A stretch of 36,460 bases of DNA from a virus. The stretch covers positions 1 through 36,460 of IMG/VR virus record IMGVR_UViG_3300047560_000914; one strand, written 5' to 3'. Below are positions 3,010-32,898 of this stretch, one piece after another (position 1 is the stretch's first letter; each line of letters begins with the position of its first letter). A program made the translations under genes and the position numbers. Under the pieces are notes generated by a model that saw nothing but the letters and a program-made list of their open reading frames with translations, was not told the DNA's origin and ran no database searches.

Positions 3010-3039
3010 AAAAAACCCTGGAGTTTTTAGTTCCAGGGT
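3010..3039 (-). terminator. Strong intrinsic terminator
   Basis: On the minus strand ACCCTGGA (3039-3032) and TCCAGGGT (3022-3015) form a perfect 8-bp GC-rich stem with a 9-nt loop, followed by six Ts (3015-3010, the first shared with the stem). It closes the short transcription unit that begins near 3213. Confidence 0.9.
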
Positions 3040-3066
3040 CCTTCAGTTTGTTAGTTACATTTGCCG

Positions 3067-3213
3067 TTAAGCGTAACCATCTCCCTCTCGGACCCCGATC
3101 GTAATCTCTGGTGTGCGATCACTATTTGAGTTCGCAAACAAAGACCAATAGGCGTTCATGCCTAAACCGGGCTGTTGTTGTTTTAGCGAATGACTTAAAA
3201 AGTGTTGCATCAT
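3067..3213 (-). CDS. 48-aa ORF inside a short strong transcript (peptide or ncRNA)
   Basis: A 48-codon ORF starts at tandem ATGs (3213 and 3210); another in-frame Met is at residue 19. The second half contains NAYWSLFANSNSDRTPEIT and ends in GYA. No family is recognised. The predicted transcription start of the consensus promoter just upstream falls at about the first ATG, so the only Shine-Dalgarno-like AGGAAC would lie upstream of the transcript and translation would be leaderless unless the mRNA starts at the distal promoter. The DNA also holds hairpins (TAGGC/GCCTA; TGCGAACT with AGT and TCGCA; GTTAC/GTAAC), so the product may be a roughly 200-nt non-coding RNA instead. Neighbouring PP-loop genes make a modified peptide conceivable, but nothing shows it. 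Confidence 0.4.
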   Translation of the reverse strand: MMQHFLSHSLKQQQPGLGMNAYWSLFANSNSDRTPEITIGVREGDGYA

Positions 3214-3219
3214 GTTCCT

Positions 3220-3248
3220 ATTGTATTTTATTTATCATTCAATGTCAA
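3220..3248 (-). promoter_or_regulatory. Consensus sigma70-type promoter, proximal
   Basis: Minus strand: -35 TTGACA (3248-3243), spacer of exactly 17 bp, -10 TACAAT (3225-3220). Eleven of twelve positions match the host housekeeping consensus. The predicted start is around 3213. Confidence 0.85.
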
Positions 3249-3321
3249 GCACTGATTGATAATTTTATTTATCTTTTTCTTTTAAAACTTTGGTTTTAGC
3301 ATTTCTGCTGTGTAAGTGTGT

Positions 3322-3350
3322 ATTGTATGAGTTGTATCTTTAAGTGTCAA
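3322..3350 (-). promoter_or_regulatory. Consensus sigma70-type promoter, distal
   Basis: A second identical pair: TTGACA (3350-3345), 17-bp spacer, TACAAT (3327-3322). It sits immediately after the stop codon of the third PP-loop gene. The predicted start near 3315 would give a transcript carrying the AGGAAC site before the 48-aa ORF. Confidence 0.83.
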
Positions 3351-3354
3351 CACC

Positions 3355-4515
3355 TTAGATGCCCAAATCATACATTTTACTTGTCATTGCTTTGAACCCA
3401 CTAGCTATGTTACTTGGATCTCTTTTCCAAGCATCTGGCCAGCTGCGCCACATTTCTTCTAAACCAACTCTCCACGAATACTTTGCAGGATCATCATCGG
3501 GTAACTTGAAGAACCATTCATCACGCGGTGTAAAAAATACACTGGGCGCTTTTACTTGGAACGGCGCACGTACCCACCATGGGTAAATCAATTCGTGTAC
3601 TTTAGACATAGTTAGCTGTCTTGTCAAGCCCCCATTTTCAAATTTTACTAAACCATGCGGTTCACCAGTTGCATCAGGGTGCCCGGCATGTAGTGTTTTA
3701 ATGAAATTTTTAATAATGTGCCCTTGTTTGATAGCAATCAACGGCGCATCCGGACTCCAGTAAAACAACTCATCAAACTCCCAGGGCCTGTTTTCCATTT
3801 GTTGATAAGGGCTGTGAGCCGTGTCAACAAAGTCAACAAAGTAAAAATAGTAATGGTCTTTAACTTGATGCATCCTAGGTTTGTCAATGCCCTGAATAAA
3901 CCCAACTTTCTTCCCAGTATCAAACATGTTAGTCCACTCTGGTACCGTAAGTTTAATGTCGTTCTTAGATGCATTGTTCGGGTTCATGTACCCATTCATG
4001 CGGTACCCCCAATTGAACTTTGTGTCTTCCTTGCTAAAGTAATCCATTACTAGCTTACTAACATCGATTACACGGTGCTTTAGGTTTGGGTTCTTCTCGC
4101 GGGCTTTTTCGATCAGCGGCATAGCAACGTGGAAGATTTCCCCGTTCATAAAACTTGTGCGATCCTTGGTTGCTTCGTAGTTTACATAGCTAACTACTTC
4201 ATCTAAATGTATGTCGTTTTCTATAAAACTATGAAAAATGTTTAAACTGTCTGCGCCACCGCTGAGCCAAAGTACCAGGTAATCGTATTTCTCACGTAAC
4301 TGTTGCGCCCTGCGTTTGTATAGTTCGGTAATGCTTTCTTGTGGTTCAGTTTTCCAATCAAGCGCACTATATGCATCTTCGTTAAAATTCCAACGAAGTG
4401 GCAAGCCTGTACGTTGATGCTCGTAAATTGTTTCTAGCTTGCTATAAGATCTAAAGTTACCGCATTGATAAAAACCAAACTGATCCTGCCTACTAGATAG
4501 AATTAAAGATTCCAT
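3355..4515 (-). CDS. PP-loop ATPase-like protein, paralogue C
   Basis: 386 aa. The N-terminal half carries a PP-loop pyrophosphatase motif, SGGADS at 85-90, after a beta strand (YLVLWL), as in asparagine synthetase, QueC and other N-type ATP pyrophosphatases that adenylate a substrate. Other blocks shared with the two upstream paralogues are WNFN (42-45), LDWKTEP (52-58), the ELYKRRAQQLREKYD helix, GIDKPR, ELFYWSPD and the C-terminal YDLG. There is no glutaminase domain, so it is not a complete asparagine synthetase. The ATG overlaps the previous stop as TAATG, with AGGA upstream, implying translational coupling. It is last of three tandem copies. The substrate is unknown. Confidence 0.8.
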   Translation of the reverse strand: MESLILSSRQDQFGFYQCGNFRSYSKLETIYEHQRTGLPLRWNFNEDAYSALDWKTEPQESITELYKRRAQQLREKYDYLVLWLSGGADSLNIFHSFIENDIHLDEVVSYVNYEATKDRTSFMNGEIFHVAMPLIEKAREKNPNLKHRVIDVSKLVMDYFSKEDTKFNWGYRMNGYMNPNNASKNDIKLTVPEWTNMFDTGKKVGFIQGIDKPRMHQVKDHYYFYFVDFVDTAHSPYQQMENRPWEFDELFYWSPDAPLIAIKQGHIIKNFIKTLHAGHPDATGEPHGLVKFENGGLTRQLTMSKVHELIYPWWVRAPFQVKAPSVFFTPRDEWFFKLPDDDPAKYSWRVGLEEMWRSWPDAWKRDPSNIASGFKAMTSKMYDLGI

Positions 4516-5663
4516 TATGTTCCTAAATCGTAAATCTTGCTGCTCATTGGTACTAGCCCTTTACTAATATCTTTAGGGTCTTTCTTCCATGAGTCTGGCC
4601 ACTGGCTCCACAAATAATCCAATCCTGTGCGCCATGCGTAACGGGCAGCATCGTTTTCGGGTAATTTGAAAAACCATTCATCACGCTGTGTAAAGATTAA
4701 ACTTGGTGCTTTAGCTTGGTATGGCACAGGGTACCAACCCGGGTAAATCAAACGATGCATAGTGTCAAGTGGAACACCGTACTTTTGATTGTTAATAGTT
4801 ACTTGTACTGTGCTAGCTTTTGCATCAGTCCATAAGTCACTGGCATTTGCCAATTTAATATACTTCTTTAAGACGTGTGATTGTTTAATTGCAATCTTAG
4901 GACTATCAGGACTCCAGTAAAACAATTCATCAAAGTCCCAAGGACGGTTAAGCATCTGTGCTTGTGCTGATACTGCTTGGTCTACCATGTCAACAAATGA
5001 AAAGTAGTAGTGATCCTTAACTTGGTGGATGCGTGGCTTATCAATACCCTGTATAAAGACAACTTTCTTACCAGCGTCAATCATATCACGCCAATGTTTT
5101 TGAGTTAGCTTAATGTTAATTTTGGATGAGTTGTTAGGGTTTAAGTAACCATTCATATGGTACACCCAATCAAACTTACTTTCGCGTTGCGAATAGTTGT
5201 CCATAATTAAAGAGGACAAATCTAGTAATGTGTGCTTTAGCCAGGGCTGCTTTAGTTTAGCTTGCTCAATCTTAGGGATCGATACATTGTAGATCTCCCC
5301 ATTCAAAAAATTAAACTTATCCCCTGTTGCTTCATAATTAACCATGCCCACACACTCATCAATGCGTATGTCATTATTAATAAAACTGTTTAGCACATTA
5401 CTAGAGTCGGCGCCGCCGCTAAACCAAAGCACAACGTAATCATACTTGTCTCGTATTTGCTGTGCTCGTATACGGTAGAGCTCCTCCAGTGTTTCTGTGG
5501 GCTCTACTTTCCAGTCGTAGCTAGAAAAGACTGGCTCATTAAAATTCCATTTAACTCTACCGCCAGTTTTGTTTGCGTTAAGTGCTTCTAACTTGCTGTA
5601 GTACTTACAGTCATTGACTTCGTAGAAGCCAAATTGGTCCATGTTAAAATTTAAAATGTTCAT
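4515..5663 (-). CDS. PP-loop ATPase-like protein, paralogue B
   Basis: 382 aa, clearly the closest relative of the next gene downstream: both share the FSGGADS/LSGGADS loop (82-87 here), VNYEAT, GYxNPNN, GIDKPRxHQVKDHYYF, the RPWxFDELFYWSPD block and the DEWFFKLP block. The first ATG overlaps the end of the upstream paralogue by about 20 bases; an alternative ATG at 5642 (residue 8, MDQFGF) would give no overlap. Known PP-loop enzymes activate a carboxylate or carbonyl with ATP for amidation, thiolation or ring closure; which one applies here cannot be told. Confidence 0.8.
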   Translation of the reverse strand: MNILNFNMDQFGFYEVNDCKYYSKLEALNANKTGGRVKWNFNEPVFSSYDWKVEPTETLEELYRIRAQQIRDKYDYVVLWFSGGADSSNVLNSFINNDIRIDECVGMVNYEATGDKFNFLNGEIYNVSIPKIEQAKLKQPWLKHTLLDLSSLIMDNYSQRESKFDWVYHMNGYLNPNNSSKINIKLTQKHWRDMIDAGKKVVFIQGIDKPRIHQVKDHYYFSFVDMVDQAVSAQAQMLNRPWDFDELFYWSPDSPKIAIKQSHVLKKYIKLANASDLWTDAKASTVQVTINNQKYGVPLDTMHRLIYPGWYPVPYQAKAPSLIFTQRDEWFFKLPENDAARYAWRTGLDYLWSQWPDSWKKDPKDISKGLVPMSSKIYDLGT

Positions 5664-6828
5664 TGATACCAGTACTTATATATTCTGCTGGACCAAGATC
5701 ATAAAAGGGGCTCAAGAATCCAACAAACCCAACAGGTCTGCCTAGCTCAGTGTTGAAGTATTTGAGGTCAATGTTTTTAACTAGGTAAGCTAGACCAGCT
5801 TCCCACCGTCTGTACGCATCTGTGTCTTTAAAGTTAGTGTAGAACCAAAAGTCCATCTCGTTATAGAAACTGTTAGATGGTTTAGATGTTTGGAACGTTG
5901 CAGGATTGTAGTCCGGATAGATTAAAGGCTTTACGACTTGTTCATATGTTGTTCGTTGGGCAACACTATAATTAGGCCATCGTACAAGAAATTGCAGGAA
6001 CTGATTTTGCGGAAGACTAAACCAACTCTTGATGGTATGCGCTTGAGCGAGTACAAGTTCAGGTAAGTCGGGTGTCCAGTAAAAGTACTCGTTTGTGATG
6101 TTAGTGTATTCGTACACAACAGAATTAGAATGATTTGCTTGCAAATCCATAAAGTATGCATACCAGCGCCCGTCCTTAATACACATCTTAGGCTTGTCTA
6201 CTCCGTACAATACGCAAATACTTTTGCCGGTATCTGCATCCCTGCGATGGTCAATTAAACTAATATTGTCATGCTTAAACGCATGTCCAGGCTGAAAGTA
6301 GTCTTTTGTTTTTAATACCCACGACTCATCTGCTTCGCCCTTTAACATATCCTCACTATAGTCATGTATCGTAACTTTGGTCTTAGGATAGTTAGTAGAG
6401 ATCCATTGTAGCAATGGCTTGGCCGCAAACTCCCATTCGCTTAGTGTGTTCTCACATTTAGTATTAAACGGATCGTTGCTTACATTCTTCTCGCCTGTTT
6501 TGGGATAACGAAACACAACTTCATCTAAGTGGATGCCGTTGTGCAAGAAACTATAAATTGCAGTAGTACTGTCTCCCCCACCGCTAGCTTCTACACGAAT
6601 CCAATCATACTTGTCGCGCAGTTGTTGCGCTCTCATACGATACAGTTCTTTTAAAGGAATGTTAGGTGGCGTTGCCCAATCTAACTTAGCGTACACATCT
6701 CGATTAAAGTTCCACTCGGGAAAGATACCTGTGCGGGTAGCTTCTATTAAGGCTTCCACTTTGCCATAACAGACTTTGTCACCTAGTTTGTAGTATCCTA
6801 ACTTAGGATTGTTATCGAGTTTATACAT
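5644..6828 (-). CDS. PP-loop ATPase-like protein, paralogue A (divergent)
   Basis: 394 aa, first and most divergent of the three. It keeps the PP-loop as SGGGDS (82-87), the WNFN and LDWATPP blocks, ELYRMRAQQLRDKYD, GVDKPK, EYFYWTPDLPE, PLIYPDY and the terminal YDLG. Where the other two have VNYEAT it has an unrelated stretch, and the DEWFF block reads DFWFY. These differences suggest a distinct substrate or a heteromeric partner role. The ATG follows tRNA-Arg by only 8 bases and has no clear Shine-Dalgarno site, so the gene is probably co-transcribed with the tRNA. Confidence 0.78.
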   Translation of the reverse strand: MYKLDNNPKLGYYKLGDKVCYGKVEALIEATRTGIFPEWNFNRDVYAKLDWATPPNIPLKELYRMRAQQLRDKYDWIRVEASGGGDSTTAIYSFLHNGIHLDEVVFRYPKTGEKNVSNDPFNTKCENTLSEWEFAAKPLLQWISTNYPKTKVTIHDYSEDMLKGEADESWVLKTKDYFQPGHAFKHDNISLIDHRRDADTGKSICVLYGVDKPKMCIKDGRWYAYFMDLQANHSNSVVYEYTNITNEYFYWTPDLPELVLAQAHTIKSWFSLPQNQFLQFLVRWPNYSVAQRTTYEQVVKPLIYPDYNPATFQTSKPSNSFYNEMDFWFYTNFKDTDAYRRWEAGLAYLVKNIDLKYFNTELGRPVGFVGFLSPFYDLGPAEYISTGINEHFKF

Positions 6829-6914: not shown

Positions 6915-7289
6915 TTATCTAACCGCTTTTGCTCTAGCAACTAGCACATCTTCAATGTTACCCTTAATAATAACATTGGTGTACGAATCTGTCAAGCCAC
7001 TAGCGTGATCCGTTACCCTATTGTCAGGTTCGTGATACGTTCTAATACGTTCAGTGCCTGCTTGGTTACGATCTTTGTCTTTGTGAAAGTGTGCAACTAC
7101 ACGGTTACGGCAAACATTATACGCCGCAGCTTTGTTATCTTCGCGGCTACGACTGTTTGTTCCGTTGGCTTGTATTCCAGTGGGTTCGTGAATACAGCGG
7201 CAACAATTTTGATGCTTGTTGCGATGCTGTCCTCCCTTACCTGTACCGGAGAACCATTCAAAACGGAATTGATCTTCTGTGAGTTTCAT
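6915..7289 (-). CDS. Stand-alone class I release-factor (GGQ) domain protein
   Basis: About 124 aa consisting of the catalytic domain of bacterial RF1/RF2. The motif GTGKGGQHRNKHQN contains the universal GGQ (19-21) that triggers peptidyl-tRNA hydrolysis, and the end carries RIRTYHEPDNRVTDHASGLT, matching the RTYxxPxxRVTDHRxxxT signature of RF1/RF2. The stop-codon recognition domain is missing, as in the rescue factors ArfB and PrfH, but there is no clearly basic ArfB-type tail. Starts at 7307 (ATG) and 7313 (TTG) are also possible; none has a strong Shine-Dalgarno site. It sits between two tRNA genes, fitting a role in translation such as ribosome rescue or release during infection; this role is inferred. 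Confidence 0.82.
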   Translation of the reverse strand: MKLTEDQFRFEWFSGTGKGGQHRNKHQNCCRCIHEPTGIQANGTNSRSREDNKAAAYNVCRNRVVAHFHKDKDRNQAGTERIRTYHEPDNRVTDHASGLTDSYTNVIIKGNIEDVLVARAKAVR

Positions 7290-7322
7290 AACTGTATTTT
7301 GGTGCATTACCAAGATGCTTTG

Positions 7323-10553: not shown

Positions 10554-11166
10554 GATTTAGTTTACCTTTCATAATCGGAACTTCCCTAGTCTTATAACTG
10601 TATTCGATTTCGTTAACGTTATGACTTATGTTGTTCTGTTTAAGGATATCAACATACGCCGCGATGCGGTCTGTGTTCCAGAACTCATTCATTACGTTAA
10701 CATGTATAAATTTATCTTTCGCAATAGTCTCGCGTAATTTAATTACGGTATTGAAGAACTTCTTTTCGTCAATGTGCTCACTATGCGTACTAAACGAAAT
10801 GTTATCAACTACTTCAAACATTTTCAAATAATAGTTGTATGTAGCACTTCCGTTAGTGGTTAACAAAATTTGTTTAATCTTCGAGCTGTAATTCTCACGC
10901 AACCATTTAACAAACGGGTAGAACGCTTTATTGCCTGTTACTTCTCCGCCAGTAAAACTAATCTTATACTGTAAATTTCTACCCTTTGATTGCTCGTAAA
11001 TTGATAACCAGTTTGCTTTTAACTCATCGAGGGATTTGTGTTTACTTGTACTATCGTGCCACTGCGGGCCGCAGTACATACAATCGTAATTGCAACGGCG
11101 ACCTAATTCCCACGTAATCGAAAAAGTATTTTCAACCGGGAATATCTCTATTACTTTTGGATCCAT
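10534..11166 (-). CDS. Radical SAM protein, core domain (second of pair)
   Basis: 210 aa. The [4Fe-4S]-binding motif CNYDCMYC (25-32) is canonical CxxxCxxC, and the SAM-binding GGE motif FTGGEVTG is at 71-78. The protein stops after the partial TIM barrel, and its missing auxiliary cluster domain is encoded in the +1 frame immediately downstream. It overlaps the preceding radical SAM gene by 16 bases. The family generates a 5'-deoxyadenosyl radical; members with a SPASM domain often modify peptides. The substrate is unknown. Confidence 0.8.
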   Translation of the reverse strand: MDPKVIEIFPVENTFSITWELGRRCNYDCMYCGPQWHDSTSKHKSLDELKANWLSIYEQSKGRNLQYKISFTGGEVTGNKAFYPFVKWLRENYSSKIKQILLTTNGSATYNYYLKMFEVVDNISFSTHSEHIDEKKFFNTVIKLRETIAKDKFIHVNVMNEFWNTDRIAAYVDILKQNNISHNVNEIEYSYKTREVPIMKGKLNLEIPTP

Positions 11167-12299
11167 AGTTTAAACGATTCAGGGTAAATGTCTAACGACA
11201 AGTTGCGGCGCTTTGCAAATTCTAAAATAAATGATTTGCATTGTGCAATATGTTCTTCTGTGTGCGTTGCACTTACTGCTTGGTGTATTTTGTCAGTGTG
11301 ATATTTAAACGTTGTTTCTAGAATTTTGTCTCTGCTTGCAGGGTCTAATAGACTAGGCGCAAGATATAATGGATCAATTAATATGTTAAAGTAATCTTCC
11401 TCTGTACCGAACTCATCCTGAAACTCTTTAAATCCATGCACTGTTAAGTTGCATATTGTATTTGCAAATTTGTACTTTATACCGTACTTACGTATAGTGT
11501 CTAAATTAGTAAGAAGATTGCTATAACTGTTGCCATAACGGTTGAATTCGTACAATTCACCTGTGTTTTCTGCACTAATAACTAGTGTAGTTATGTCTGC
11601 TGGCAATTGTTGCACAATTCTATCAAACCGCTTTGGATTGACGCCTAAGCCTGTTGTAATTTCAATTCGTTCTGCTTCTGTTAAACGAACGATGTCTTCG
11701 AGACCGTTATACAGGAATGGTTCACCGCCCATAAACTTTAACACCTGCAACTTACGCAAGCTTGCGACTTCGTCCAGTATTAGTTTGTAGCGTGGGCTGT
11801 TTTTAATTGCAGCCTGACCTATTTTAATAATAGCGCGGTCATCGATTGTGATGTTAAACCTGTCGTCACCTGCATAGTCCGGTAGGTAAGTACCATTGTC
11901 CGAAATATCTCGAAGCCAAGCGGTGCTATAACGCTTAGTGCAGTACGAACAAGTCATATTGCAATCACTGCCTAATATAACTTCAACAACTTCAGGGGTG
12001 GATTCTAATTGTGTAAACTGCCGATCACTTGCAGCTTGGTGTATTGTTCTACGACTCGGGATACCTTTTGATTCAGGAATCCAACAACCTCGTGAGCAAC
12101 TAGAAACAGGCTTGTTGTCTAGCATATCCTGACGCTCTTGTAAGATTGTAGGATTGTTAAACAACTTGCCGTTGTTGGTTTTAAGCCAAGTAGTATCAAT
12201 TGGTTGTTGGTCTGCTTTACAGCAGGAAGCTAACAGCCGCCTTTCGGGATCAACTGTTAGCCACCACCACTTTTGACTACAATAAAAGTTATTCTGCAT
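11151..12299 (-). CDS. Radical SAM protein with N-terminal twitch-like Cys domain
   Basis: About 382 aa. An N-terminal Cys-rich region (FYCSQKWWWL, LLASCCKAD, SSCSRGCW) precedes the core motif CNMTCSYC (113-120) and GGEP (191-194), so the auxiliary-cluster-like part comes before the barrel, the reverse of the usual SPASM order. The ATG at 12299 overlaps the end of uvsX (GGATGCAGAATAA); an upstream start at 12323 would overlap more. It is translated in the recombination operon just after uvsX. Likely functions are peptide or protein side-chain modification or an unknown metabolite step; no substrate can be named. Confidence 0.8.
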   Translation of the reverse strand: MQNNFYCSQKWWWLTVDPERRLLASCCKADQQPIDTTWLKTNNGKLFNNPTILQERQDMLDNKPVSSCSRGCWIPESKGIPSRRTIHQAASDRQFTQLESTPEVVEVILGSDCNMTCSYCTKRYSTAWLRDISDNGTYLPDYAGDDRFNITIDDRAIIKIGQAAIKNSPRYKLILDEVASLRKLQVLKFMGGEPFLYNGLEDIVRLTEAERIEITTGLGVNPKRFDRIVQQLPADITTLVISAENTGELYEFNRYGNSYSNLLTNLDTIRKYGIKYKFANTICNLTVHGFKEFQDEFGTEEDYFNILIDPLYLAPSLLDPASRDKILETTFKYHTDKIHQAVSATHTEEHIAQCKSFILEFAKRRNLSLDIYPESFKLWIQK

Positions 12300-13368
12300 C
12301 CTCAACCACAGGGGCTTCTTCAAGCGAAGTGTTCTTGTCGAACTTGTGTGGATTAGCAGTAATGTCAGCCATAATTTTATCTAGACTACCGTCTTCGTTA
12401 CGTTCCCATGCTTTGCGGAATTGTTTAATAATTTCGCCGTCAGTTGTAACATACTTTAGACTGTTGCCTTCTTTAGTAAGTAGGCCTTTTGCTTCGCATA
12501 AATCAACCATGCCAGAGTATGGGTTCATACCTGTTTCGTATGGAATCTTAACTTGAACACTTTCAAAAGGTTTAGCATAACGTGTCTTCATGATCTTACA
12601 TGCTGCACGAATACCTTTAACTTCTGAAATCTTGTTACCGTCTTCGTCTTCCTTCAACTTCAACTTACGCATAGCCACAACAATAGAGCTAGCATAGATA
12701 AAGCCTTGACCACCGGAGATCTTGTCGTCAGGATCAAACATATCCTGCGATGCGTATGTATGGTTAGTTGCTACTAGTCCAATGTTTAAATCGCCAAACA
12801 TGTTCACACAGTTACGAACAAGTGCTGTTAGTGCTTTAGGCTTACGACCCAAGTCACCTTTAAGGTCACCTGCTTGGAATTGGTTAACGTCAGTTGGCGT
12901 TAACATCATACCCAGCGAGTCAAGCACAAACAATACCTTGGGACGTTGGTCTTCGGGCAGTGCTTTATATTCTTTAACAAAGTCATTAATTAACTTAGCA
13001 ACGTCATCAATCATTGCCACGTTAAGTTTAAGTAGTTTCTCTTCTGAGGTGTCAACCCCAAGTGCATGTAGCCATTGCTCGTCAAGAGCGTTTTCAGTAT
13101 CAACAAGAATAACGTAGATACCTTGTTCCTGTGCATTTTTAATAATGTTACCGGAACAAATATACGACTTACCTGCACCAGATTCTCCAGCAAAAACTGT
13201 AACCTTGCCCATTGGGATGCCCTTATTGAAATCACCCGAAATGAGGTAGTTAAGCGCAAAGTTGTTGGTGCTGATCCAAGTATCCGGATCACGAAAGCCG
13301 ATACTAAGACCTTCAATACTTTTTGTAATTGTTTTACGAAATTTACTTACGTCAAATGGTTTAGCCAT
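12289..13368 (-). CDS. uvsX: UvsX RecA-like recombinase
   Basis: 359 aa. Walker A GESGAGKS at 61-68 and Walker B VLFVLDS at 145-151 are in place, followed by the L2/ATPase region GLVATNHTYASQDMF. T4 UvsX is 391 aa. It catalyses homologous strand exchange for recombination-dependent replication and repair together with gp32 and UvsY. The start is preceded by AAGGAAA. It follows gp32 after a tetraloop hairpin and heads an operon with radical SAM genes and the UvsY-like gene. Confidence 0.95.
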   Translation of the reverse strand: MAKPFDVSKFRKTITKSIEGLSIGFRDPDTWISTNNFALNYLISGDFNKGIPMGKVTVFAGESGAGKSYICSGNIIKNAQEQGIYVILVDTENALDEQWLHALGVDTSEEKLLKLNVAMIDDVAKLINDFVKEYKALPEDQRPKVLFVLDSLGMMLTPTDVNQFQAGDLKGDLGRKPKALTALVRNCVNMFGDLNIGLVATNHTYASQDMFDPDDKISGGQGFIYASSIVVAMRKLKLKEDEDGNKISEVKGIRAACKIMKTRYAKPFESVQVKIPYETGMNPYSGMVDLCEAKGLLTKEGNSLKYVTTDGEIIKQFRKAWERNEDGSLDKIMADITANPHKFDKNTSLEEAPVVEDAE

Positions 13369-32890: not shown

Positions 32891-32898
32891 TATTTATT
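32891..32898 (-). promoter_or_regulatory. Late promoter-like AATAAATA (gp18)
   Basis: AATAAATA in the region upstream of the sheath ATG, followed by a 35-nt leader containing AAGGAAAA. Confidence 0.5.

Follow-up and report, generated by a model that had tools for sequence, protein, structure and literature searches.

A putative ribosome-mediated transcription attenuator in front of phage tRNA arrays

A compact locus in front of a phage tRNA array is very probably (we would put it at roughly 0.87) a ribosome-mediated transcription attenuator that controls the array, as judged from its own sequence and from those of its relatives. It lies in a virus record of IMG/VR, a stretch of 36,460 bases that was analysed over its whole length and is called the window below. 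The analysis revealed a conserved module with a coevolving antiterminator, a leader peptide of broad amino-acid coverage and a constant position before tRNA genes; in Salicola phage SCTP-2, moreover, leaders match the tRNA genes that they precede.

The locus and its phage

Judged by its genes, the window comes from a contractile-tailed jumbo-type phage; its tail sheath is 42–46% identical to those of Agrobacterium phage Atu_ph07, Pseudomonas phage PA5oct and Sinorhizobium phage Phosso, and terminase and UvsX-like genes are present. ARAGORN called 14 tRNA genes in the window, 12 of which form a single minus-strand array (Table 1). The serine-type tRNA between this array and the locus was not called by ARAGORN and has a weak match to tRNA-Sec in Rfam (46 bits, against a cut-off of 47).

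Table 1. Features of the locus and of the genes behind it, by position in the window
Feature	Position	Strand	Remarks
Distal promoter P1, TTGACA-17-TACAAT	3322–3350	−	Not part of the conserved module
Proximal promoter P2, TTGACA-17-TACAAT, with TAAATAAA in the spacer	3220–3248	−	Conserved in the family
Leader ORF, 48 codons, MMQHFLSHSLKQQQPGLGMNAYWSLFANSNSDRTPEITIGVREGDGYA	3067–3213	−	19 of 20 amino acids, 37 different codons
Antiterminator 5′ strand, in the last ORF codons (GGGGUCC 3096–3090; UGGUUAC 3079–3073)	3073–3096	−	From pairing and folding
Antiterminator 3′ strand (GUAACUA 3058–3052; GGACCC 3041–3036, shared with the terminator 5′ arm)	3036–3059	−	
Intrinsic terminator, hairpin and U-run	3011–3042	−	Sequence-conserved in the family; excludes the antiterminator
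60-aa ORF just 3′ of the terminator	2801–2983	−	Homologues after the leader in several relatives
Structured RNA of ~240 nt, before the first tRNA	2547–2795	−	Conserved, with compensatory changes
Serine-type tRNA, UGA anticodon (read by eye)	2398–2482	−	First tRNA 3′ of the attenuator
tRNA array (Phe, Thr, Asn, Pro, Trp, Leu x2, Ser, Glu, Tyr, Ile, Asp)	157–2387	−	Presumed regulated genes

A preliminary description of the locus, made from the sequence alone, was accurate on its outline. The two sigma70 promoters that it reported were recovered at the same coordinates to the base, and they are as rare as it supposed: exact TTGACA-N16-18-TACAAT has only two matches in the window, where dinucleotide shuffles lead one to expect 0.04 and none reaches two. 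The proximal start does coincide with the ATG of the leader ORF, which lies 7 nt past the last base of the −10 element, i.e. at the expected +1. The transcript, given before as ~200 nt, is predicted to run from 3213 to ~3011 (~203 nt; fold of −56.7 kcal/mol, z −2.6 against shuffles), and its GC-rich terminator is indeed strong (hairpin at ~3042–3011, −18.6 kcal/mol in its local context, z −3.9). An intrinsic terminator is thereby placed between leader ORF and structural genes, as in an attenuator.

The P2 spacer includes ATAAATA, which resembles the T4-type late motif, and P2 may be a dual early/late promoter by its sequence. ATAAATA is found in the window about as often as by chance (nine copies, 9.2 expected), and several relatives carry GGTAAATA at the P2 spacer, which breaks the motif.

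Behind the terminator, the 60-aa ORF is matched by homologues directly past the terminator of other loci (e.g. in L005–L008, L014 and L015), and it has no family above cut-off in PHROGs, Pfam or NCBIfam. The structured RNA that follows was found nearly full length in 34 related-locus sequences and shows compensatory changes in 30 out of 40 predicted pairs; a Rfam search gave no match for it, and it is possibly a new RNA family and the first product of readthrough.

A family of loci in front of tRNA arrays

A search with the 48-aa peptide collected six related virus contigs and one near-identical contig. Later searches added two loci by profile, about 12 by a pattern of promoter plus ATGATG, and dozens more by a promoter-only pattern; with three chance promoter matches removed, there are 60 distinct members, mostly metagenomic virus contigs and many of them found by the promoter pattern. 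Depending on the identity measure, 22–28 of the 60 have a peptide identity below 60%. The conservation of the promoter is partly by construction, as the later searches used it, yet not solely, since P2 is present in the loci found via the peptide alone (L004–L008, L014). Tests over all 60 members overstate independence because the members are related; tests on representatives only also hold.

The module shared by these ~60 loci consists of a sigma70 promoter, a leaderless or near-leaderless ORF of 38–51 codons, a conserved terminator and a tRNA array. The ORF is uninterrupted in all 60 members, its changes in length are whole codons and its ATG is conserved. In 56 out of 60 members the distance from −10 to AUG is 6–10 nt, which places the start codon at, or a few bases from, the expected 5′ end of the RNA. 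On every contig that extends far enough, the ORF is followed at ~60 nt or less by a terminator whose sequence is conserved. P2, ORF, antiterminator and terminator are conserved; P1 has a counterpart only in L008 among the homologous loci read closely. The homologues therefore retain the promoter, the RNA pairing and the reading frame, the three features by whose loss the preliminary description proposed to judge itself.

In 38 out of the 41 members with at least 1.5 kb after the ORF, a same-strand tRNA gene lies no more than 1.5 kb downstream (in 37 no more than 800 nt). All loci together have 565 downstream tRNA genes on the same strand and none antisense, which places the element in cis to tRNA arrays. 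Neither the site nor the peptide, searched as DNA and as protein, has a match among 50,697 named phage genomes, and the peptide matches no PHROGs, Pfam or NCBIfam family.

A few members are built differently at the start: in L009, L015, L112 and L133 the −10 element is 25 to ~58 nt from the ATG, in some of them with a Shine–Dalgarno-like sequence.

Coevolution of the ORF end with the terminator region

The final ORF codons are complementary both to the segment in front of the terminator and to the terminator 5′ arm itself. In the window the resulting antiterminator hairpin (3100–3036; −19.8 kcal/mol, z −3.2) is near-equal in energy to the terminator (−18.6 kcal/mol), and the two are mutually exclusive, as both use GGACCC; a second helix, UGGUUAC:GUAACUA, encloses the stop codon. 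This complementarity is conserved: against dinucleotide shuffles of the ORF end, its mean z is −4.3 over the 58 testable members, and z is below −2 in 56 of them.

The two strands change in concert. As the MAFFT alignment of the attenuators shifts the register of GGGTCC, we used a swap test in place of a column-based count of covariation: among divergent members, own pairs have −22.4 kcal/mol and swapped pairs −16.2 kcal/mol, and none of 10,000 permutations is as good. Concerted changes include GGGUCC:GGACCC, GGGUUCC:GGAACCC and GGGUUC:GAACCC, and (in DNA letters) GGGTTTAAG:CTTAAACCC; further pairs are GGGUUUAAG:CUUAAACCC and GGGUCUUAG:UUAAGACCC, and one variant has an antiterminator in two parts, UAUAGAA:UUCUAUA plus GGGG:CCCC. 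An antiterminator that takes in the ORF end and shares the 5′ arm of the terminator is thus backed by conserved complementarity as well as by coevolution.

Leader peptides sample nearly all amino acids

Each peptide of the family, with ~44 residues on average, contains 17–20 of the 20 amino acids. The mean number of different amino acids per leader is 19.3, compared with 16.9 in windows of the same length from proteins of the same phages, and all 20 are present in 53% of the members but in only 2.3% of the null windows. When residues were shuffled among members within alignment columns, coverage dropped to 17.7–18.0 (z 6.3 for members below 50% identity, 11 for all members), so that a residue lost at one position tends to reappear at another. 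The excess is also seen in the part upstream of the antiterminator (17.6 versus 15.3 amino acids; Stouffer 6.9), which is where stalling of a ribosome would count. In the window the leader's amino-acid count alone (19) is unremarkable (P 0.19), and the claim of coverage therefore rests on the family.

Codon diversity exceeds what is expected from peptide and codon usage (Stouffer 4.2–5.9 for representatives; control coding windows have a mean z of −0.3). The window leader has 37 different codons versus 28.3 ± 2.8 in the null (P 0.00025). Rarer codons, which are the sensitive ones in attenuators, are over-used in the leaders (GCG, GGG, GAG, CCC and GTG); near the end of the ORF, base pairing may account for some of this bias.

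Leaders without a given amino acid more often belong to arrays without that tRNA (odds ratio 4.9, Fisher P 0.002, for family loci with many tRNAs, whose members are related and whose arrays are often truncated). Several arrays of the family have no Lys or His tRNA for residues that their leaders sample; many of the arrays are truncated.

Similar layouts in named phages

As named genomes gave no match by similarity, cases among them were found by layout: the neighbourhood of the tRNA genes of sequenced phages was scanned for a short ORF, antiterminator, terminator and tRNA, irrespective of sequence. Atu_ph07, Phosso and SCTP-2, which are relatives by tail sheath, have, like the window, a leader ORF, antiterminator and terminator directly before tRNA genes, but the sequences of their leaders show no recognisable kinship to the window leader.

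SCTP-2 differs from the window in having four cluster-specific attenuators, one before each of its four tRNA sub-clusters, instead of a single pan-amino-acid leader. Leader 1 (MNSNTMNNNVNTSINEMNISVDHNIAMHNDHINNDIDMSWRVLI) precedes tRNAs Asp, His, Met, Ile and Asn (from this cluster we excluded a questionable tRNA with anticodon AUA); leader 2 (MINASTTNIAKSMIGKAAKVSFKGGFVWAFSFKKASGQRGFLE) precedes Lys, Phe, Trp, Val, Ser(GCU) and Gly; leader 3 (MNALTRTFTLTITTRSSERTSEVRSTERETVGERKGV) precedes Ser(UGA), Glu and Thr; and leader 4 (MRTNTTVNQYQLQQLPLVLYPYNGGKGC) precedes Leu(UAG), Pro, Leu(GAG), Tyr and Gln, with an uncertain Gly call. Leaders 1–4 are enriched for the amino acids of their own clusters by factors of 2.3, 1.9, 2.6 and 2.5 (P 2e-7, 3e-4, 3e-5 and 7e-5), and in the 4x4 matrix no leader is enriched for the amino-acid set of another cluster. 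The match extends to codon boxes: all five Ser codons of leader 2 are AGY, with tRNA-Ser(GCU) downstream, three out of four in leader 3 are UCN, with tRNA-Ser(UGA) downstream, and all four Leu codons of leader 4 are CUN, with tRNA-Leu(UAG/GAG) downstream. Taken singly, the SCTP-2 antiterminators are moderate (z −1.7 to −2.6 against mononucleotide shuffles).

In front of their arrays, Atu_ph07 and Phosso each carry a single leader, with 18 and 19 amino acids respectively, and a strong antiterminator (−31.1 and −37.9 kcal/mol; z −5.8 and −5.6). In the SCTP-2 matrix the control codons agree with what the operon encodes, and so they do, as pan-coverage, before near-complete arrays; the correspondence is imperfect in Atu_ph07, whose leader has two Asn and four Thr residues although the phage was reported to have no tRNA-Asn and tRNA-Thr (PMC6102473). 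The arrays of the window family supply most isotypes behind a leader that samples nearly everything; SCTP-2 pairs each sub-cluster with its own codon set.

With the same criteria the layout was not found before the tRNA genes of T4, KVP40, SP15, CcrColossus, G, RaK2, SD-2, PA5oct, Vibrio 2.275.O and XacN1, which argues that the scan is not triggered by chance; weaker or differently built attenuators may occur in these ten phages.

Proposed mechanism

From the above we infer that the locus switches, in which direction it does so, that leader translation settles the result, that the start is leaderless and what the physiological trigger is. Host RNA polymerase would start at P2, at or next to the leader AUG, with a ribosome following; the leader contains almost every amino acid, in many different, often rarer, codons. 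With all aminoacyl-tRNAs available, the ribosome would reach the end of the ORF and cover the 5′ strand of the antiterminator; GGACCC would then pair downstream, the terminator would form and the ~200-nt RNA would be released. With any sampled aminoacyl-tRNA scarce, the ribosome would stall upstream, the ORF end would pair with GGACCC, and with the terminator precluded, transcription would continue into the tRNA genes. That stalling leads to readthrough is read from the geometry: only an unoccupied ORF end can block the terminator.

Such a shortage could result from cleavage of host tRNAs, from a mismatch between host and phage codons or from a degraded host tRNA supply, and a mismatch in codon usage late in infection would work the same switch. 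An array opened by shortage would supply phage tRNAs only when needed; it may be transcribed from other promoters too. In the window the core segment of the antiterminator is just 5′ of the footprint of a ribosome on the stop codon, and occlusion there would thus depend on timing. The preliminary description had offered a leaderless peptide or a structured small RNA; there is support for a leaderless or near-leaderless ORF as well as for RNA structure, and it was only the choice between them that was false, because ORF and RNA fold would act jointly.

Alternative explanations

An improbable but not negligible alternative is that the locus responds to translation activity in general, i.e. to whether initiation and elongation occur at all (for example after host shut-off), and not to individual tRNAs. 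The antiterminator logic works with any slow or absent ribosome, and the near-leaderless start found in 56 out of 60 members (6–10 nt) could confer sensitivity to the state of the ribosome. Such a switch, however, would not yield near-full amino-acid coverage with compensating positions, nor an excess of codon diversity, nor the matching of leaders to tRNAs in SCTP-2.

That the 48-aa product is a functional phage peptide, such as an early regulator of host takeover, and the hairpin an ordinary terminator, is very unlikely. The frame kept in all members and the strong promoter would suit it. But the comparison of substitution rates, which the preliminary description had proposed for this ORF, gives a mean pN/pS of 0.55, with near-even changes at codon positions 1, 2 and 3 (100/87/112); the frame is thus kept open while the peptide sequence is weakly constrained, and little of that sequence is conserved family-wide. 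The conserved complementarity of ORF end and terminator and the absence of a protein family match also speak against this reading, which we rejected on pN/pS and composition.

An equally slim chance is left to a free-standing small RNA of ~200 nt, a decoy or a trans-acting regulator. The unit is compact, with strong promoter and terminator and a structured RNA, and the terminated 200-nt RNA is itself the product predicted for the repressed state of the attenuator. But the ORF is unbroken in 60 members, the position before tRNA genes is constant, and no conserved structure independent of the reading frame was seen, the conserved pairing being that of antiterminator and terminator; Rfam searches of the window and the site gave tRNAs only and no known regulator. 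Conservation of frame and position led us to discard the plain interpretation as a small RNA or decoy. The early, abundant regulator or decoy RNA of the preliminary description is likewise unsupported, as what is conserved is an antiterminator/terminator switch with broad coverage of amino acids and codons, in cis before tRNA genes, and the peptide sequence is poorly conserved.

Least credible is that the terminator merely insulates the array from upstream transcription and that the complementarity arises since ORF end and terminator 3′ arm both carry GGG: the 3′ arm (GGGUUUUUU) necessarily resembles the ORF segment (GGGUCC), but the complementarity reaches past the terminator arm into the spacer (e.g. 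CUCC:GGAG, UACAC:GUGUA) and covaries with it, and the amino-acid coverage would be left unexplained.

Comparison with known systems

Ribosome-mediated attenuation is a textbook mechanism. The trp, his, leu, ilv, thr and pheST leaders likewise have a short leader ORF with control codons, sensitive codons among them, and mutually exclusive antiterminator and terminator; there, too, a stalled ribosome leads to readthrough, the logic proposed here. These attenuators of biosynthetic operons, however, control enzymes and sense one to three amino acids, whereas the element described here would control phage tRNA genes and sense nearly all amino acids or, in SCTP-2, those that belong to the tRNAs of the sub-cluster behind it. 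It further differs from them in its start at or near the RNA 5′ end and in that a trp-type 1:2 pause hairpin is only a candidate (CCCGGU:AUCGGGG in the minimum-free-energy fold of the window; by eye absent in several relatives). The sensitivity of attenuators to codon choice has been modelled, with theory in PMC1183508.

T-box leaders likewise sense tRNA charging and control transcription through a terminator and antiterminator, but they bind uncharged tRNA directly and without a leader ORF, which the present element has; no T-box was matched in Rfam at the gathering or a relaxed threshold.

As a counter-defence, phage tRNAs are believed to stand in for host tRNAs that anticodon nucleases or retron effectors have destroyed (PMC10264068, PMC11555353); neither an attenuator nor a leader peptide turned up in a search of these papers. 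The genes presumably controlled here are phage tRNAs as well, in an array that would be inducible by the very shortage it relieves. In the open-access papers searched, neither tRNA-gene attenuation nor a leader with pan-amino-acid content is described, and no leader of this type is reported for these phages.

We lean, by a small margin only, towards the wider view that many jumbo phages carry a universal sensor of charged tRNA and that their tRNAs are an inducible kit for counter-defence or repair and not a constant supplement to codon usage. The leader of such a sensor would be selected for every amino acid and for maximal codon variety, and the array would be turned on only once any one of the host tRNAs runs low, as it might under antiphage defences that cleave tRNAs. 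The purpose and timing of phage tRNAs is a decades-old question, to which an attenuator would answer that the phage measures tRNA supply and responds to it. Depletion of one tRNA is predicted to turn on the whole array, in SCTP-2 only the sub-cluster encoding that tRNA. Attenuation, with its one to three amino acids so far, would be widened to nearly twenty and would also take in tRNA genes; whichever tRNA runs short, the element would offer a sensor ready for use. Confirmation would tie phage tRNA arrays to tRNA-targeting defence and provide a sequence signature for inducible arrays elsewhere.

Neighbouring genes and other observations

Upstream of the attenuator, on the minus strand, are three adjacent large ORFs (3355–6828; 382–394 aa). 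The PP-loop genes that the preliminary description placed there are borne out as far as an SGGxDS (PP-loop-like) motif, seen by eye in the ORF adjoining the attenuator, but not by any match in Pfam, PHROGs or NCBIfam. A similar gene end lies upstream of the leader of L014.

ATAAATA, the core of T4-type late promoters, is found on the minus strand at 32891, 28854, 22013, 16053, 14507, 8003, 3266 and 3229. Eight of the nine copies in the window are on the coding strand, shortly 5′ of the tail sheath, tail tube and other genes, and two are within the promoter region of the attenuator.

Two further genes on the minus strand were noted. One (6915–7313), adjoining tRNA-Arg and tRNA-Met genes, encodes a short protein with an RF-1 peptide-release domain (Pfam PF00472, 59.8 bits) and may be a ribosome-rescue factor of the phage. 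The other (11151–12323) encodes a radical SAM protein that resembles the twitch-domain subfamily (NF033640, 145 bits, below the cut-off of 170).
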